A stretch of 64,000 nucleotides of DNA. Source: a bacterium. Lineage in GTDB: Bacteria > Auribacterota > UBA3054. The notes under the pieces are model-generated. The model saw nothing but the letters and a program-made list of their open reading frames with translations. It did not search any database and was not told where the DNA came from. Positions 1-8,791 of the stretch are shown here, piece by piece. The DNA is taken from the NCBI GenBank assembly GCA_017963805.1, contig JAGCTE010000044.1, positions 1 to 64,000 on the forward strand. Direction: 5' to 3'. How positions within the stretch are numbered: position 1 is the stretch's first letter; each line of letters opens with the position of its first letter. The translations under genes were made by a program, and so were the position numbers.

Positions 1-447
1 CTGAGCGTCGTTGAAGTAAGCCGGGACCGTGATGACGGCCTGCGTCACTTCTTCGCCCAGATAATCCTCGGCGGTCTGTTTCATCTTCTGCAGAATGACA
101 GCGGAGATCTCGGGAGGAGTGTAGTCCTTGCCCTGGAGCTTCACGGCCACGCCGCCGTTGTGATCTACGACATGATAAGAGACCTGCTTTTCGTCAGCGG
201 TCACTTCGTTGTACTTGCGGCCCATGAAACGCTTGATGGAGAAGACCGTGTTTTCCGGATTGGTAACGGCCTGACGTTTGGCCACCGTGCCCACGAGACG
301 GTTGCCGTCTTTGTCGTAAGCGACGATAGAAGGAGTCGTGCGTCCGCCTTCACTGTTCGCGATCACTTTGGGTTCGTTGCCCTCCATGACGCAGACGCAG
401 GAGTTCGTGGTGCCAAGGTCGATGCCGATGATTTTGTTCTTGCTCAT
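1..447 (-). CDS. dnaK: Chaperone DnaK (Hsp70), N-terminal 149 residues only
   Basis: ATP-dependent chaperone that folds nascent and stress-damaged proteins in the cytoplasm together with DnaJ and GrpE. The first 149 residues are visible; the gene runs off the left edge of the window. The N-terminal phosphate-binding motif [12 protein letters not shown] lies at about residues 7-18, followed by the usual RTTPSIVA segment, and the visible part ends in [12 protein letters not shown] of the actin-like ATPase domain. The ATG at 447 follows a good ribosome binding site (GAGGT, 6 nt upstream). The upstream region holds a sigma-54-type promoter and inverted repeats (separate entries) and no CIRCE element. 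The family assignment is certain; only the C-terminal substrate-binding half cannot be assessed. Confidence 0.97.
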
Positions 448-497
448 ATTTACCTCACTTTTGTTTGATTACTATTTAATTAAGCGTAAATATATAG

Positions 498-514
498 AGC
501 AATTTTTGTGCCAA
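498..514 (-). promoter_or_regulatory. Sigma-54 type (-24/-12) promoter of dnaK
   Basis: On the minus strand the sequence reads TTGGCACAAAAATTGCT. It carries the complete TGGCAC (-24) and TTGC(A/T) (-12) elements with the obligatory 5-nt spacing. The expected start site, about 12 nt after the -12 GC, falls near 487. That leaves a leader of about 40 nt containing the GAGGT ribosome binding site before the dnaK ATG at 447. No equally good sigma-70 promoter was seen here. The match is seen directly; use by RpoN is inferred. Confidence 0.72.
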
Positions 515-545: not shown

Positions 546-566
546 AAAAGGCCAAAACGGCCAAAC

Positions 567-611
567 GTGACATTTTGGCGCAAAGTCGAAAAGAGAGTGA
601 AATAATGTCAC
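567..611. promoter_or_regulatory. Spaced inverted repeat, possible enhancer for the dnaK sigma-54 promoter
   Basis: GTGACATT at 567-574 and AATGTCAC at 604-611 are perfect 8-bp arms separated by 29 nt. They lie about 80 to 124 bp upstream of the predicted dnaK start, the usual distance for enhancer-binding-protein sites. The right arm covers the stop codon of the rluD-like gene, so coincidence is possible. A direct repeat of GGCCAAA at 550 and 559 lies between this pair and the inner palindrome. Confidence 0.3.
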
Positions 612-1576
612 TTTTTGGAGTTTTTCCTGAAACAGAGTTCGGAGAGCGCTTCCCTTACCCTTAGGTAATCGTCGGGAAGCGGCGCGGTGACGCAAAGCGC
701 CTCCCCGGTCACAGGGTGTTCCAGCTCCAATCTGTAGGCGTGCAGCATCTGACGCTCGGCGCGGGCCAGCTTCGTCAGTTTGGCAGCGCTCCTGCCGTAG
801 GTGGCGTCCCCTATCACGGGATGCCCGATGTGCGCCAACTGCACCCTGATCTGGTGCGTGCGGCCGGTTTCGATGACAAGGGAAAGTTCCGAGGCGGTCG
901 TCGCGAAAGCCTGGATCACTTTTCCTGTCGTGATGGCGACTTTCCCCTTCTCGGGATTCTGTACGACCGCCATTTTCTTGCGGTCGGCGTTGCTGCGGGC
1001 CAAGTAATCGACGAGCTCGAAGGGGCTTTGCTGCGGGAGCCCCAATACCAGCGCGCGGTATTCTTTGGTGAAGCTCCTCTCCGAAAACATCTCGAGCATT
1101 TTCAGCCTTACGGCTTCCGACTTCGCGACCATGATGAGTCCGGAAGTGTCCTTGTCAAGGCGGTGCACTATGCCGGGCCGCTCGGGATCTCCCACGGAGG
1201 TGAGGAAAGGATAGCGATGGATTAGCTGCTGCACGAGCGTCGCTTCTTTTTCCGTCCCCGCTCCGGGATGCACTGTCAAACCAGCGGGCTTGTTGACGAT
1301 CAGAAGATGCTCGTCTTCGTAGGCTATGTCAAGGTCGCCCTCCACGGGCTTCAGTTCGCTCTTGGTTTCAAGCGGTTCGAAAAAGGCGATCGTCTCGCCG
1401 CCAGAAATTTTGAAAGCCGGGCGGACCCTTTCGCCGTCGACCGTAAGGCAGCCGTCCTTTATGAGAGCCGTTATGCGGGCGCGCGAAACGGTCTTCAAGG
1501 CGTCGGAAAGGAAAACGTCGACTCTTATGGCGCCCTTGCCGCCGTCGTAGGCGAACTTGTGCTTAGTCCCCTTCAT
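608..1576 (-). CDS. rluD: Pseudouridine synthase, RluA/RluD family
   Basis: Isomerises specific uridines in large-subunit rRNA (or tRNA) to pseudouridine. It is 322 residues long, normal for RluD. An S4 RNA-binding domain covers about residues 17-75, and the catalytic domain carries the family signature HRLDKDTSGL with the catalytic aspartate at about 141. The C-terminal substrate motif GRTHQIRVQL is near 237-247. The start is 3 nt downstream of the obg stop, so the two are very likely cotranscribed, an arrangement that fits a ribosome-assembly pair. RluD cannot be separated from RluA or RluC paralogues by eye, so the exact target uridines are not certain. Confidence 0.9.
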   Translation of the reverse strand: MKGTKHKFAYDGGKGAIRVDVFLSDALKTVSRARITALIKDGCLTVDGERVRPAFKISGGETIAFFEPLETKSELKPVEGDLDIAYEDEHLLIVNKPAGLTVHPGAGTEKEATLVQQLIHRYPFLTSVGDPERPGIVHRLDKDTSGLIMVAKSEAVRLKMLEMFSERSFTKEYRALVLGLPQQSPFELVDYLARSNADRKKMAVVQNPEKGKVAITTGKVIQAFATTASELSLVIETGRTHQIRVQLAHIGHPVIGDATYGRSAAKLTKLARAERQMLHAYRLELEHPVTGEALCVTAPLPDDYLRVREALSELCFRKNSKK

Positions 1577-3912: not shown

Positions 3913-5391
3913 ATGATGAAAAAAGCCCTGCTACTTTTTTTGCTCCCTGTTCTCTGTGCCGCCCCGCTCGCGGCCGCCGAGAAATGGGACGTAGGCCTCG
4001 CCTGGCTGGAACGCGATCCCAAATACCCCGTGCCGATGGACGCAGTGGGAAAGAGCAACTGGCCTAAGCCCGGCGACGAGCTGACCTTCACCGCCCATCT
4101 TTTCATCAACGGCCCCGAGGACGCGCTGCCCAAGGAGCAGGCGGCCGAACTGAAATGGTTTTTCAACACCAAGCTCGCCGGTAAGACCTCCCTCGCCCTG
4201 GACGGGAATGGCTTCGCCGCCAGCAAGCTCAAATGGACCGTTCCCGCCGATTACAGGTACGACTTCAGCAAGCCGCTTACCAACTGCCTGGAAGTCGTCC
4301 TCTCCTACCAGGACGGCAAGAAGGACCGCAACGCTTTCAACGACAGCCTGAAGATCTGCCTTGACGCCCTGGTCTTCAGCGTGAAGGTCAACAATAAAAC
4401 GTTCGCGCAATACACGGACCCCGAGGGCCTCTCCTTCTTTGACCGCCTTAATCAAAACATCGCGTGGATGAACGACCGCTTCGGCTCCGCGAAATATCCC
4501 CTTGCCCCTTGGGGCATCATCGACCGCTACCGCGTTGACCGCGTCGAGCTGACCGACGACGAGATCGAAAAGGACCTTGAGCACGGCGATCCCAACGCCA
4601 CCACCCGCCTCTTCTTCATGGAAGGCGGCAAGATGGGCGCCTTCTACAACGCCCCCTACTACTGGATCGGGCAGACCTTCTTTTACGTGAGCGGCGGCGT
4701 GACCAACGGCATATTCTCCCAGATGGGCATCGGCGCCGTGACCCACGAGGCCGGCCACTCCCTTCAGCTTCCCGACACGTACATGTTCGACCTCAGCGAG
4801 GATAAGAACCACGTCACTCATGAAAAGATCTCCTGCGACTGGATGGACACGGACGGCAAGATCGACATCATGCGCTATCCGTATAACGGCAATTCCGCCT
4901 TCACCGAACTCTCCGCCGTCGCCGCCAACACCCAATCCGGCGTCTTCCGCCGGCACACTCCGGAAGTCATGAAAATAGACGGCAAGCTCAGCCTGGGCTG
5001 GATGTTCCGCTGCCTGCCGAAAAAGATCGGCGTGCGCTTTTTCGCGAAAAACGGCCAAGAGCTTCCCGACGGCCTTCCCGTCAAATTTTACCGCGCCGAC
5101 CGCTCGAGCTACTATATCGAGGTCCCTAATGACGACATAGTCCTTGACACAACGTACAAAAAAGGCGGCGTTTTCTTCGAGCCGGACTTCGAGGTCAAGG
5201 AGAACGCCAACATCGGCAAGAACACCTTCCTGGTCTGCCTGGAGCAAAAAGACCGCAAGCACGCCGTGCTGCTTGACCAGCTGCGCTTCAACTACCGCTA
5301 CATCAAAGGGGAGACCGAGACCCAGATATTCTCTTTTACCAACGATTTCAGCGAGGCTGAATCAAAAGAAAAGCCAAGTGAAAAAAAATAA
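3913..5391 (+). CDS. Secreted HExxH protein, single-unit member of a duplicated metalloprotease-like family
   Basis: A 492-residue exported protein. The signal peptide covers residues 1-22 (cleavage near AAA-EKWD). A CARDB-like beta domain (about 25-160) opens with the block WDVGLAWLERDPKYP and contains KPGDELTFTAHL. The catalytic-like domain carries THEAGHSLQLPDTY, that is HEAGH at 278-282 with Asp288 at the spacing of the third ligand of HExxHxxGxxD zinc proteases; Gly is replaced by Gln285. DIMRYPYNG further on resembles a metzincin Met-turn. There is no PEP-CTERM tail, unlike the neighbour, so it may be released. It is followed after about 20 nt by the two-unit paralogue. The enzyme class (M6/M7-like or new) is inferred; ATG 3916 is an alternative start. 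Confidence 0.72.
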   Translation: MMKKALLLFLLPVLCAAPLAAAEKWDVGLAWLERDPKYPVPMDAVGKSNWPKPGDELTFTAHLFINGPEDALPKEQAAELKWFFNTKLAGKTSLALDGNGFAASKLKWTVPADYRYDFSKPLTNCLEVVLSYQDGKKDRNAFNDSLKICLDALVFSVKVNNKTFAQYTDPEGLSFFDRLNQNIAWMNDRFGSAKYPLAPWGIIDRYRVDRVELTDDEIEKDLEHGDPNATTRLFFMEGGKMGAFYNAPYYWIGQTFFYVSGGVTNGIFSQMGIGAVTHEAGHSLQLPDTYMFDLSEDKNHVTHEKISCDWMDTDGKIDIMRYPYNGNSAFTELSAVAANTQSGVFRRHTPEVMKIDGKLSLGWMFRCLPKKIGVRFFAKNGQELPDGLPVKFYRADRSSYYIEVPNDDIVLDTTYKKGGVFFEPDFEVKENANIGKNTFLVCLEQKDRKHAVLLDQLRFNYRYIKGETETQIFSFTNDFSEAESKEKPSEKK

Positions 5392-5413
5392 ACAGATGCT
5401 ATCACATAATACA

Positions 5414-8400
5414 ATGAACAACACTACCGGAAAAATGCGCGCCAGACAACTTTTGCTTTTGCTTATCTTCGCGTTCTCCTTTACGTCGCTCGCCGCCTGG
5501 GATCTGGGGATCGCCTGGATCGAACGGGCCGAGAAGTACCCCAACCCCAAGGACGCCGACAACGTCTTCAACCGCCCCGCGCCCGGCGACGTCGTCCACT
5601 GGACCGCCAACATCTATTCCAACAGCGAGGAAACTTCCGGAGACGTCACCGCGTATCTCAAATGGTATGTCAACACGAAACTGGAAGCGGTGCACACGCA
5701 GAGCTTCTCCAAAGCCGAGGGGATCTACACCGACAGCTACGCCTGGACCGTCCCTGAGAACTACACCTACGACTTCACGCGCTCTCTCACGAACAAGCTA
5801 TCCTTGGTCATGAGCTATCCCGGATCCCTGAGGGACAACAACAGCGGCAACGATTCCCGCGAGATCTTCCTAGACGCCATGACCTTCAGGGTCAAGGTCT
5901 ATACGAACACCTTCTGGAAATACACAGTCAAGGGAAGCTCCCCGAAATCTTTCTACGACAACCTTGAGGACACCATCCAGTTCATGAACGGCCGCTACGC
6001 CGCCATGAGTTACCCCCTGGCTCCTTACGGCATCATCGACCGCTACAGAGTCGACCATGTTGAAATGATGAACGTGGCCAAGGATCCCACCCGCTTCGAA
6101 GGATGCGAGGATTACTACACTACGGTCAGCTACAGCGAAGGCGACGACTACGGCGGATACCTTGGCAACCCCTACGACTGGATCGGGCAGACCTTCCTTT
6201 GGAACGGGAACGGCGTCTTTTCGACCATGGGGCACGGCGCGGTTTGCCACGAGACCGGCCACTCCTTCGGCTTCCCCGACACCTACCGCTTCAACATGCC
6301 GGCCGCCAACAACAAAGTCTTCGGAGAAGCCTACACTTGCAACTGGGCCGATCCCAAAGGCAAGGAAGACATCATGCGCTACTGCTACAACGGCACCAGG
6401 GACGTCTTCACGGAGCTGGAATGTGCGACCATCAACCTGAAGGCCGGCTCCCAGCGCCGTTATCCCCCGGAGATGCACAACGGCGTGAAAGGCTGGATGT
6501 TCGCCTGCCTTCCCACCAACATCTGCATAAAAGCCTACGGCGAAAACGGCCACGAGCTCTGTCTGGCCGAAGTCCTCGTCTACCGCGGGACCGGCAGCAG
6601 CTACGAGCTCGCTTTCGGCAACACCAGCCCGAGCTACACCTTGACATATGATCAGGGCGCCAAATTCAAACCGAATTACAGCTACGACAACAACAATCTT
6701 TACTACAACAGCTTCATCTTCAAGCTGCCCGGCGATGACACATCGAACTACAAGATCATCGACAGCCTGAGATTGAACTACGAATACCTGAAAGGCCAGA
6801 AAGACGTCTGCTTCTTCTCCTTCACGAACGCGAATTACAAGGCCGCCGAGCCGACTTCCATCGTGATAGGAGACGGCAGCGGCTCCACTTTCACCCTGAA
6901 GAACGAACTGCATTTATCTTATCCCGCCAACGCCCAAAAGATCCGCTGGGCCTACAACGAAGCCGGCTTAAACGACGCCGAGTGGCTGGACATCTCCGAA
7001 GACATGGAAATGATCTTCACGAAAAACGGCCGCCTTTCCATCTATTTCCAAACGCTTTCCTATGACTGCGTGCTTTCCGACGTTTACGTAAGGGAAATAA
7101 CCGTTACGACCGACTGGGACATGGGATTGGCCTGGCTTGAGCGCACGCCGAAATACGGCATCGGCAAATACGACATCGGCAGCACCTACCGTCCGAAGCC
7201 GGGCGACAGGCTTACCTGGACCGCCAACATCTACTGCAACACTTCGCTGACGAACGATCCCATCGACGTGGTCGTCGACTGGTACGTCAACACGAAAAAG
7301 GAAGCATCGCACACCAACAGCTTCAGGGTCGTCCGCGACCTTTACCAGGACGACTTCCATTGGACCATGCCGGACACTTACGTCTACGATTTCACCAAGC
7401 CGCTTACCAACATCGTAAGAGCCGTCATCAGCTACCCCGAGGGATACGTCGACAACAACGTCAGCAACAACGTGCTGGACGTCTATATGGACGCCCTCAG
7501 TTTCGGCGTGACCGTCGTCAACTCCACCTTCGACAAGTACACCAAGTCTTCCAAAAAGTCGTTCTACGACCACATGAACGACACTATCAACTACATGAAC
7601 GCCCAGTACGCCAGGGCCAAGTCGGTGCTGGCGCCCTACGGCATCATAGACCGCTACCGGGTAGGGTATCTGAAACGCCAGGATTCGGAGTACTTCCCTC
7701 TCAACCCGGCTGACAGCACCAACTGCACCACCCAGCTCGTCTTCAACGAGGGCGGCTCGATGGGCGCCTTCTTCAACGCCCCCTACTACTGGATCGGACA
7801 AACCTTCGCCTCCGGCATCTTCGACATGGCCGGGCACGGCGCGCTCTGCCACGAATCGGGGCACTCGCTGCAGCTGCCCGACACCTACCGTTTCGATCTT
7901 TCGGAAGAGAACAACAAGGTCAACGGCAAGGCCTGGGGCTGCAAATGGATGGATCCAGAAGGCATGCAGGACATCATGCGCTTCTGCTACGACGGCTGGG
8001 GCGACATCTTCTGCGGCGTAGGCCCGGCCGCCGCCAACCTCCAGGCCGGCGTTTACCGCCGCACGCCTCCCGAGATCTACTCCAATGAATTCTGCTATTC
8101 AGTCGGCTGGATGTTCCAGTATCTACCAACCAGCATCGTCGTGAGAGTCCACCATACGGACGGCCGCGAGCTCGACCAGCTGCCCATCCAGATCTACCGC
8201 GGCGGCGGCGAGGGCTACTACATGCAGTTCCCCGATTCCCACTACGAATGGCGGAAGATCTATTCGAAGGGCGGCATCCGCTTCGAGCCCAACTGCCGCT
8301 ACGATAACGCGAGGATCTTCGAGAACTGCTTCATGATAAGTTTGCGCTGCACCGGAACTCCCTTCGACATCCTTGACGTTCTGCGCCTCAACCACCTCTG

Positions 8401-8791
8401 CATGCTGCAGGGCAGCACCAACACTGTCGTCTTTTCCTACACCAACGATTTCAAGGCCGCCGAGATCACCAGCCTGAAGCTCAACGACGGCGCTTCCGAG
8501 ACCTTGTCGAGAGACGTTACCTTAACTCTCGCCACCGACAACGCCATTAGGAAAGCAAGATGGGCCTATTCGGAGGAGGAGCTTGAGGAGACGGAATGGG
8601 AAGAAAGCTTCACCGCCAAAACCATAACGCTCCCGGAAGAGGAAAAGAAATACACCGTCTACGCGCAAGTTTTGTCAAGAGACTTTGTCCCCTCTTACAC
8701 TAAGAGCGCAGAAATAACCCTCGTCCCGGAACCGGGTTTAATATTCGCGCTTTGGGTACTAGCTGCCTTCGGGCTGCGAAAACGCTTTTAA
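5414..8791 (+). CDS. Surface protein with two tandem HExxH metalloprotease-like units and a PEP-CTERM tail
   Basis: About 1125 residues, exported (hydrophobic stretch QLLLLLIFAFSFTSLAA near residues 12-28). It is an internal duplication of the upstream protein. Unit 1 begins WDLGIAWIERAEKYP and has HETGHSFGFPD at about 279-289, a full HExxHxxGxxD match. Unit 2 begins WDMGLAWLERTPKYG and has HESGHSLQLPD at about 813-823, with Gly changed to Gln. Each unit contains the CARDB-like domain, the YPLAPYGIIDRYRV-type block, and DIMR(Y/F) after the zinc motif. A short Ig-like linker (WAYNEAGLNDAEW / WAYSEEELEETEW) closes each unit. The C-terminus is VPEPGLIFALWVLAAFGLRKRF, a PEP-CTERM signal starting near 1104. 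Starts at 5396, 5414 and 5435 are all possible; none has a strong ribosome binding site. The last 33 bp overlap the convergent glycosyltransferase gene. Confidence 0.8.
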   Translation: MNNTTGKMRARQLLLLLIFAFSFTSLAAWDLGIAWIERAEKYPNPKDADNVFNRPAPGDVVHWTANIYSNSEETSGDVTAYLKWYVNTKLEAVHTQSFSKAEGIYTDSYAWTVPENYTYDFTRSLTNKLSLVMSYPGSLRDNNSGNDSREIFLDAMTFRVKVYTNTFWKYTVKGSSPKSFYDNLEDTIQFMNGRYAAMSYPLAPYGIIDRYRVDHVEMMNVAKDPTRFEGCEDYYTTVSYSEGDDYGGYLGNPYDWIGQTFLWNGNGVFSTMGHGAVCHETGHSFGFPDTYRFNMPAANNKVFGEAYTCNWADPKGKEDIMRYCYNGTRDVFTELECATINLKAGSQRRYPPEMHNGVKGWMFACLPTNICIKAYGENGHELCLAEVLVYRGTGSSYELAFGNTSPSYTLTYDQGAKFKPNYSYDNNNLYYNSFIFKLPGDDTSNYKIIDSLRLNYEYLKGQKDVCFFSFTNANYKAAEPTSIVIGDGSGSTFTLKNELHLSYPANAQKIRWAYNEAGLNDAEWLDISEDMEMIFTKNGRLSIYFQTLSYDCVLSDVYVREITVTTDWDMGLAWLERTPKYGIGKYDIGSTYRPKPGDRLTWTANIYCNTSLTNDPIDVVVDWYVNTKKEASHTNSFRVVRDLYQDDFHWTMPDTYVYDFTKPLTNIVRAVISYPEGYVDNNVSNNVLDVYMDALSFGVTVVNSTFDKYTKSSKKSFYDHMNDTINYMNAQYARAKSVLAPYGIIDRYRVGYLKRQDSEYFPLNPADSTNCTTQLVFNEGGSMGAFFNAPYYWIGQTFASGIFDMAGHGALCHESGHSLQLPDTYRFDLSEENNKVNGKAWGCKWMDPEGMQDIMRFCYDGWGDIFCGVGPAAANLQAGVYRRTPPEIYSNEFCYSVGWMFQYLPTSIVVRVHHTDGRELDQLPIQIYRGGGEGYYMQFPDSHYEWRKIYSKGGIRFEPNCRYDNARIFENCFMISLRCTGTPFDILDVLRLNHLCMLQGSTNTVVFSYTNDFKAAEITSLKLNDGASETLSRDVTLTLATDNAIRKARWAYSEEELEETEWEESFTAKTITLPEEEKKYTVYAQVLSRDFVPSYTKSAEITLVPEPGLIFALWVLAAFGLRKRF

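Follow-up and report, generated by a model that had tools for sequence, protein, structure and literature searches.

In model bacteria, transcription of dnaK is usually governed by HrcA/CIRCE, sigma-32, ECF factors, or RNA thermometers. A different arrangement has been described in Flavobacterium psychrophilum, in which 5'-end RNA-Seq starts place sigma-54 (SM4) promoters at dnaK, groES-groEL, grpE-dnaJ, clpB, lon, and htpG, and this sigma-54 group of chaperone genes reacts to blood agar, to osmotic pressure, and to plasma (PMC9723704). A 2025 survey predicts sigma-54 control of GroEL, GroES, GrpE, DnaJ, DnaK, and small heat-shock protein genes in Bacteroidota and Planctomycetota; the prediction is statistical and made by COG, its targets are enriched in these genes, and the parts of the survey cited here give no enhancer (PMC12316311). 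In Chlamydia, tandem sigma-66/sigma-54 promoters precede hrcA-grpE-dnaK, and heat lowers rpoN expression (PMC8762339); a sigma-54 promoter before the Hsp70 operon is thus shared with the locus described below, but in Chlamydia it coexists with the HrcA repressor and a sigma-66 promoter. In a paper on the Geobacter RpoN regulon, chaperones appear only among genes without an RpoN element, and a Desulfovibrio vulgaris regulome paper gives no chaperone enhancer. Given the Flavobacterium map, the survey, and the Chlamydia promoters, sigma-54 control of chaperones is known in kind.

Here, sigma-54-plus-enhancer control of chaperones, so far mapped mainly in Flavobacterium, appears in an uncultured gut bacterium and its relatives. 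Both this bacterium and F. psychrophilum have -24/-12 promoters before dnaK and clpB; however, F. psychrophilum has separate promoters, with no enhancer in the main text of its description, whereas the bacterium studied here, which belongs to a different phylum, has one five-chaperone cluster and a defined enhancer. In the open-access papers searched, we found no description of a conserved chaperone enhancer or of a full chaperone set in one sigma-54-headed cluster. The lineage is new, as are the grouping of the chaperone genes in one operon and the enhancer found across phyla.

The window, by which we mean the whole 64 kb stretch of DNA that was analyzed, starts with the first base of contig C16, part of a 2.05 Mb assembly (74 contigs, 93% complete; genome G000). 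The features on which the argument draws are as follows:

1..447, minus strand: first 149 codons of dnaK, an ORF within which the contig ends
466..479, minus strand: leader element TTAAATAGTAATCA, common only to the dnaK and clpB leaders
486..488, minus strand: predicted transcription start, placed ~12 nt past the GC element by sigma-54 promoter geometry
498..514, minus strand: predicted sigma-54 -24/-12 promoter TTGGCACAAAAATTGCT, perfect consensus with GG and GC elements at exact spacing
550..562, minus strand: terminator-like hairpin GGCCGTTTTGGCC followed by TTTT, between enhancer and promoter, predicted to end the transcript of the upstream gene
567..581, minus strand: UAS2 GCGCCAAAATGTCAC, beginning 67 nt upstream of TTGGCA and 30 bp from UAS1
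597..611, minus strand: UAS1 GTGACATTATTTCAC, beginning 97 nt upstream of TTGGCA and overlapping the stop codon of the upstream gene
608..1576, minus strand: upstream gene, an RNA pseudouridine synthase (RluD-like; PF00849 and PF01479)

We are confident that positions 498-514 are a true sigma-54 promoter, that it serves the main chaperone operon (dnaK-groES-groEL-grpE-dnaJ), and that an enhancer-binding protein (EBP) activates it through the upstream palindromes. Read from 514 to 498, TTGGCACAAAAATTGCT ends 51 nt from the A of the dnaK ATG (position 447) and has zero mismatches to TTGGCAC-N5-TTGCW, with every specified base and the GG-to-GC spacing correct; the initial annotation had described the consensus match, invariant bases, spacing, and distance to dnaK in the same terms, and the sequence bears it out. 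The GG at -25/-24 and the GC at -13/-12 stand at the exact spacing of TGGCAY-N5-TTGCW, a pattern that occurs only once within the 64 kb window (shuffles expect 0.09). Perfect matches to TTGGCAC-N5-TTGCW number six in the 2.05 Mb genome, against a chance expectation of ~0.5 estimated from base counts, and in the eight genomes of the genus perfect TTGGCAY-N5-TTGCW sites number 45, whereas the reversed pattern has 2; most of the 45 are at the same genes. When two mismatches were allowed, the genome scan returned 201 sites and the reversed control 246, and with no excess at this level only near-perfect sites carry information. That the predicted dnaK promoter is actually used we infer from these and the following sequence comparisons.

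Where dnaK was found in the genus (seven genomes), the -24/-12 site is retained every time, as it is at one additional locus (L041); in all of these it begins 65-81 nt before the dnaK ATG, although the flanks have drifted. It is also present in other members of the order (L128, L130, and L132, with a slightly weaker site at L135). Within 150 nt upstream of dnaK, the strict pattern TGGCAY-N5-TTGC was detected at 11 of 12 loci from the genus and order, at 4/13 from the phylum, and at 8/84 from other phyla; the controls gave 0 matches for the reversed pattern, 0 in antisense, and 0 in ~240 kb covering dnaK and the sequence beyond it. The site was not found before dnaK in phylum members L129, L138-L141, and L146. 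A softer score classed 44 of 108 dnaK upstream regions as sigma-54-positive. Among 30 genomes with both results, sigma-54-like dnaK sites occurred in 18 of the 23 without HrcA versus 1 of the 7 with HrcA, in a hand count uncorrected for relatedness.

Overlooked by the initial annotation was an enhancer, consisting of two GYGMCA-N3-TGKCRC palindromes (UAS1 and UAS2) upstream of the dnaK promoter. Equivalent sites exist at 7/7 genus loci, with UAS1 at -97 to -99, UAS2 at -67/-68, and a spacing of 30-31 bp, and the region upstream of clpB carries the same type of palindrome at -110 and -77. Allowing at most one mismatch, there are 17 such sites in 10 dnaK upstream regions and 8 in 10 clpB upstream regions, versus 0.03 and 0.02, respectively, in dinucleotide shuffles. 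None was found upstream of the GSIII-like, 410-aa, MoxR-operon, and 52-aa genes, which also have sigma-54 sites (see below). The core YGMCA-N3-TGKCR has 14 exact sites in the 44 sigma-54-positive dnaK upstream regions, and the same core with other spacers (0-2, 4-8) has at most two sites each. Because sites from the genus and order helped to define the consensus, the spacer test across phyla is the independent one, and 10 of the 14 exact core sites fall outside genus and order. The core begins 96-100 bp upstream of the sigma-54 element, where UAS1 also stands, in Bacteroidetes (L062, L073), Gemmatimonadota (L108), the order (L130, L132), and the phylum (L136). An exact genus-wide search for GYGMCANNNTGKCRC returned mostly scattered, seemingly unrelated sites, so the enhancer is informative only beside a -24/-12 element.

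With two conserved palindromes 30 bp apart, the locus has the upstream enhancer sites of sigma-54 promoters, which are frequently in tandem and in helical phase. The NtrC enhancer, TGCACCA-N3-TGGTGCA, likewise has a CA-N3-TG center and tandem sites upstream of -24/-12; however, its outer bases are GCACCA rather than the GYGMCA seen here, and the targets here are chaperones. Tentatively, and aware that the idea may well fail, we suggest that one ancient NtrC-type EBP acting on YGMCA-N3-TGKCR could drive sigma-54 chaperone promoters across several phyla without HrcA and sigma-32, which would amount to heat-shock control through an enhancer placed ~98 bp before the promoter.

The ORF downstream of the promoter can be identified as HSP70 from its full-length ortholog in genome G005, which matches PF00012 with E=1e-277. 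The gene order on one G005 contig is dnaK-groES-groEL-grpE-dnaJ-rsmE-like, with the chaperones confirmed by Pfam; dnaK heads the dnaK-groES-groEL-grpE-dnaJ cluster in relatives, and the gap between dnaK and groES is ~34 nt within the genus. In G000, the contig is broken inside dnaK and the remainder of the gene is on C12, so the evidence for linkage to groESL comes from contig C12 and from the relatives G001 and G005. The overlapping residues of the two dnaK halves (C16 and C12) differ (L280 1-80 versus window 1-75), for which a strain mixture, a second copy, and an assembly error are alternative explanations. The exact 14-mer TTAAATAGTAATCA was present at 20 of the 281 loci compared, each of the 20 lying upstream of dnaK or clpB, and in most genus members; the predicted mRNAs of dnaK and clpB have it at their start (clpB copy at L015 408-421). 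Searches of the window for Rfam and tRNA matches returned none.

The genome encodes a complete RpoN with all three sigma-54 domains (AID, CBD, and DBD), along with four strong PF00158 EBPs, of which A and B have a GAFTGA loop and C and D a GSFTGA loop:

EBP A, contig C42: response regulator with kinase, in a gene row with genes that we take to be lon and clpX
EBP B, contig C6: response regulator with kinase, beside a presumed lgt; its recognition helix is the most constant by eye
EBP C, contig C56: GAF-type orphan
EBP D, contig C66: response regulator with a PAS kinase that has no obvious membrane segment

Each of the four is conserved throughout the order, and in the EBP tree the genus clades A-D run through the order. 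Only clade D has a possible phylum-level member (SH-aLRT 88, weak support), and the genome in question carries the dnaK sigma-54 site. The tree did not single out the activator of dnaK; we would place D first, then A and B, then C, with each candidacy well short of even. Given RpoN, the EBPs, the conserved site, the phased enhancer, and the absence of the usual systems, the core chaperone operon is very probably driven by sigma-54 via an EBP. The initial annotation had proposed that dnaK would come to depend on RpoN and an enhancer-binding ATPase, and this part is well supported. Two outcomes that it named as refuting, absence of rpoN and loss of the motif in close relatives, did not occur: the genome has rpoN, and relatives retain the motif. 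The logic of control that it called different is not new, because the sigma-54 promoters of dnaK, groESL, grpE-dnaJ, and clpB in F. psychrophilum had already been mapped.

In the mechanism that we propose, RpoN polymerase would bind at -24/-12 (498-514) and be held there in a closed complex. An NtrC-type AAA+ activator would occupy the two phased palindromes (567-611) as dimers and form an active oligomer, which would loop the DNA and spend ATP to open the dnaK promoter. The same activator would serve clpB, and the terminator between enhancer and promoter would insulate dnaK from the upstream gene. Because the enhancer is common to dnaK and clpB, the signal is probably one of proteostasis, perhaps protein-folding or heat stress. 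A reading that we regard as a serious, if lesser, possibility keeps the sigma-54 promoter and replaces this signal with one unrelated to heat or misfolding, such as nutrient, envelope, or osmotic stress sensed via a two-component EBP. EBPs A, B, and D are response regulators, each paired with a kinase, two of these kinases have apparent membrane segments, and the stimuli recorded for the F. psychrophilum chaperone group point the same way (PMC9723704), whereas the enhancer is shared with clpB and unlike the palindrome of the nitrogen genes, and its known targets are proteostasis genes.

Bacteria normally cannot live without GroEL, and sigma-54 promoters show next to no basal transcription unless an EBP is active. 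Both considerations favor dual control, in which sigma-70 would provide housekeeping transcription of dnaK-groESL and sigma-54 would add stress induction, and the tandem promoters of Chlamydia offer a model for it (PMC8762339). We nevertheless consider dual control the less likely reading. One weak sigma-70-like match (9/12) does lie upstream of dnaK, at 555-528, but it is within shuffle expectation and by eye is not kept in aligned relatives; the sigma-54 site is the sole conserved promoter seen before dnaK. Nor is read-through from the upstream gene likely, because the terminator-like hairpin stands between enhancer and promoter; its stem remains paired in relatives despite base changes (e.g., AGCCTTTGTGGGCT and AGCCCTTAAGGGCT). 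If the sigma-54 promoter is the only one before dnaK-groESL-grpE-dnaJ, the supply of GroEL depends on RpoN, and rpoN and one EBP are therefore predicted to be essential. RpoN is reported to be essential in Geobacter sulfurreducens and in Myxococcus xanthus; for M. xanthus, the report gives no explanation as yet (PMC2725144). The locus bears on core chaperone regulation in lineages without HrcA or sigma-32, and the conserved palindrome is a direct handle to isolate the activator.

The systems that usually control dnaK in model bacteria are hardly credible candidates here. HrcA/CIRCE controls dnaK and groESL in many bacteria, but HrcA was found neither in this genome nor in the genus or order, and the CIRCE element TTAGCACTC-N9-GAGTGCTAA is absent before dnaK (best match 7/18 mismatches, at window locus L121). 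A genome search for additional sigma factors found RpoD only: Sigma70_r2 (PF04542) is present in a single protein, whose 739-aa open frame shows features of RpoD, and no second sigma-70-family factor (sigma-32 or ECF) was detected in the 93% complete genome. Control by sigma-32, an ECF factor, or HrcA is thus unavailable, unless the gene lies in the ~7% of the genome that the assembly lacks. An RNA thermometer was rejected as well, the dnaK leader being unstructured, with no structure hiding the ribosome-binding site (MFE -3 kcal/mol, z=+0.9). Finally, it is extremely improbable that the site is a chance -24/-12 lookalike in an AT-rich intergenic region, with dnaK driven otherwise: consensus matches alone are weak evidence and the two-mismatch sites show no excess, but conservation in the genus, the order, and other phyla with clean controls, together with an enhancer at a fixed position, has largely refuted this reading already.

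All six perfect sites in the genome sit a short distance upstream of an ORF, the genes being dnaK, clpB, a gene for a 52-aa cysteine-rich protein, a membrane protein-MoxR operon, a GSIII-like gene, and a gene for a 410-aa protein. As in the Flavobacterium-type regulon, sigma-54 sites are thus found at several core chaperone genes (the dnaK operon and clpB). The GSIII-like gene product resembles, in our reading of its sequence, type III glutamine synthetase, and the 410-aa protein is class II synthetase-like, its gene being followed by a glutamate-synthase-like gene. The sigma-54 promoters of these nitrogen genes, GSIII-like and 410-aa, share a different palindrome of the TTACAT-N3-ATGTAA type, TTACATTTNATGTAA (L013, L014, L160; G000:C51 8967- and 12123+; G007:C26). 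These two genes probably form a separate nitrogen EBP regulon.

The MoxR operon (L016, L157, L158, L170, L174, L175; G000:C60 175591-) combines a perfect sigma-54 site with a conserved upstream TTTGTCATTTTGACAAA, which we take to resemble a NorR-type GT-N7-AC site. The 52-aa protein is zinc-ribbon-like (MKAQHEHTQKKCLKCGHNF...) and has no Pfam match; its gene, downstream of a ClpC-like gene, has a perfect sigma-54 site of its own (L012, L151, L156, L159, L169). Repeated GCGCAAAAATTGCAATTT units before an ORF at L219 10530-10640 (G000:C13 ~35.5 kb) mimic two sigma-54 sites; the cluster looks like an operator array. Elsewhere in the window, positions 3913-8791 contain two long ORFs (492 and 1215 aa) whose repeated sequences are related, the 1215-aa ORF ending in a PEP-CTERM-like tail, VPEPGLIFALWVLAAFGLRKRF.
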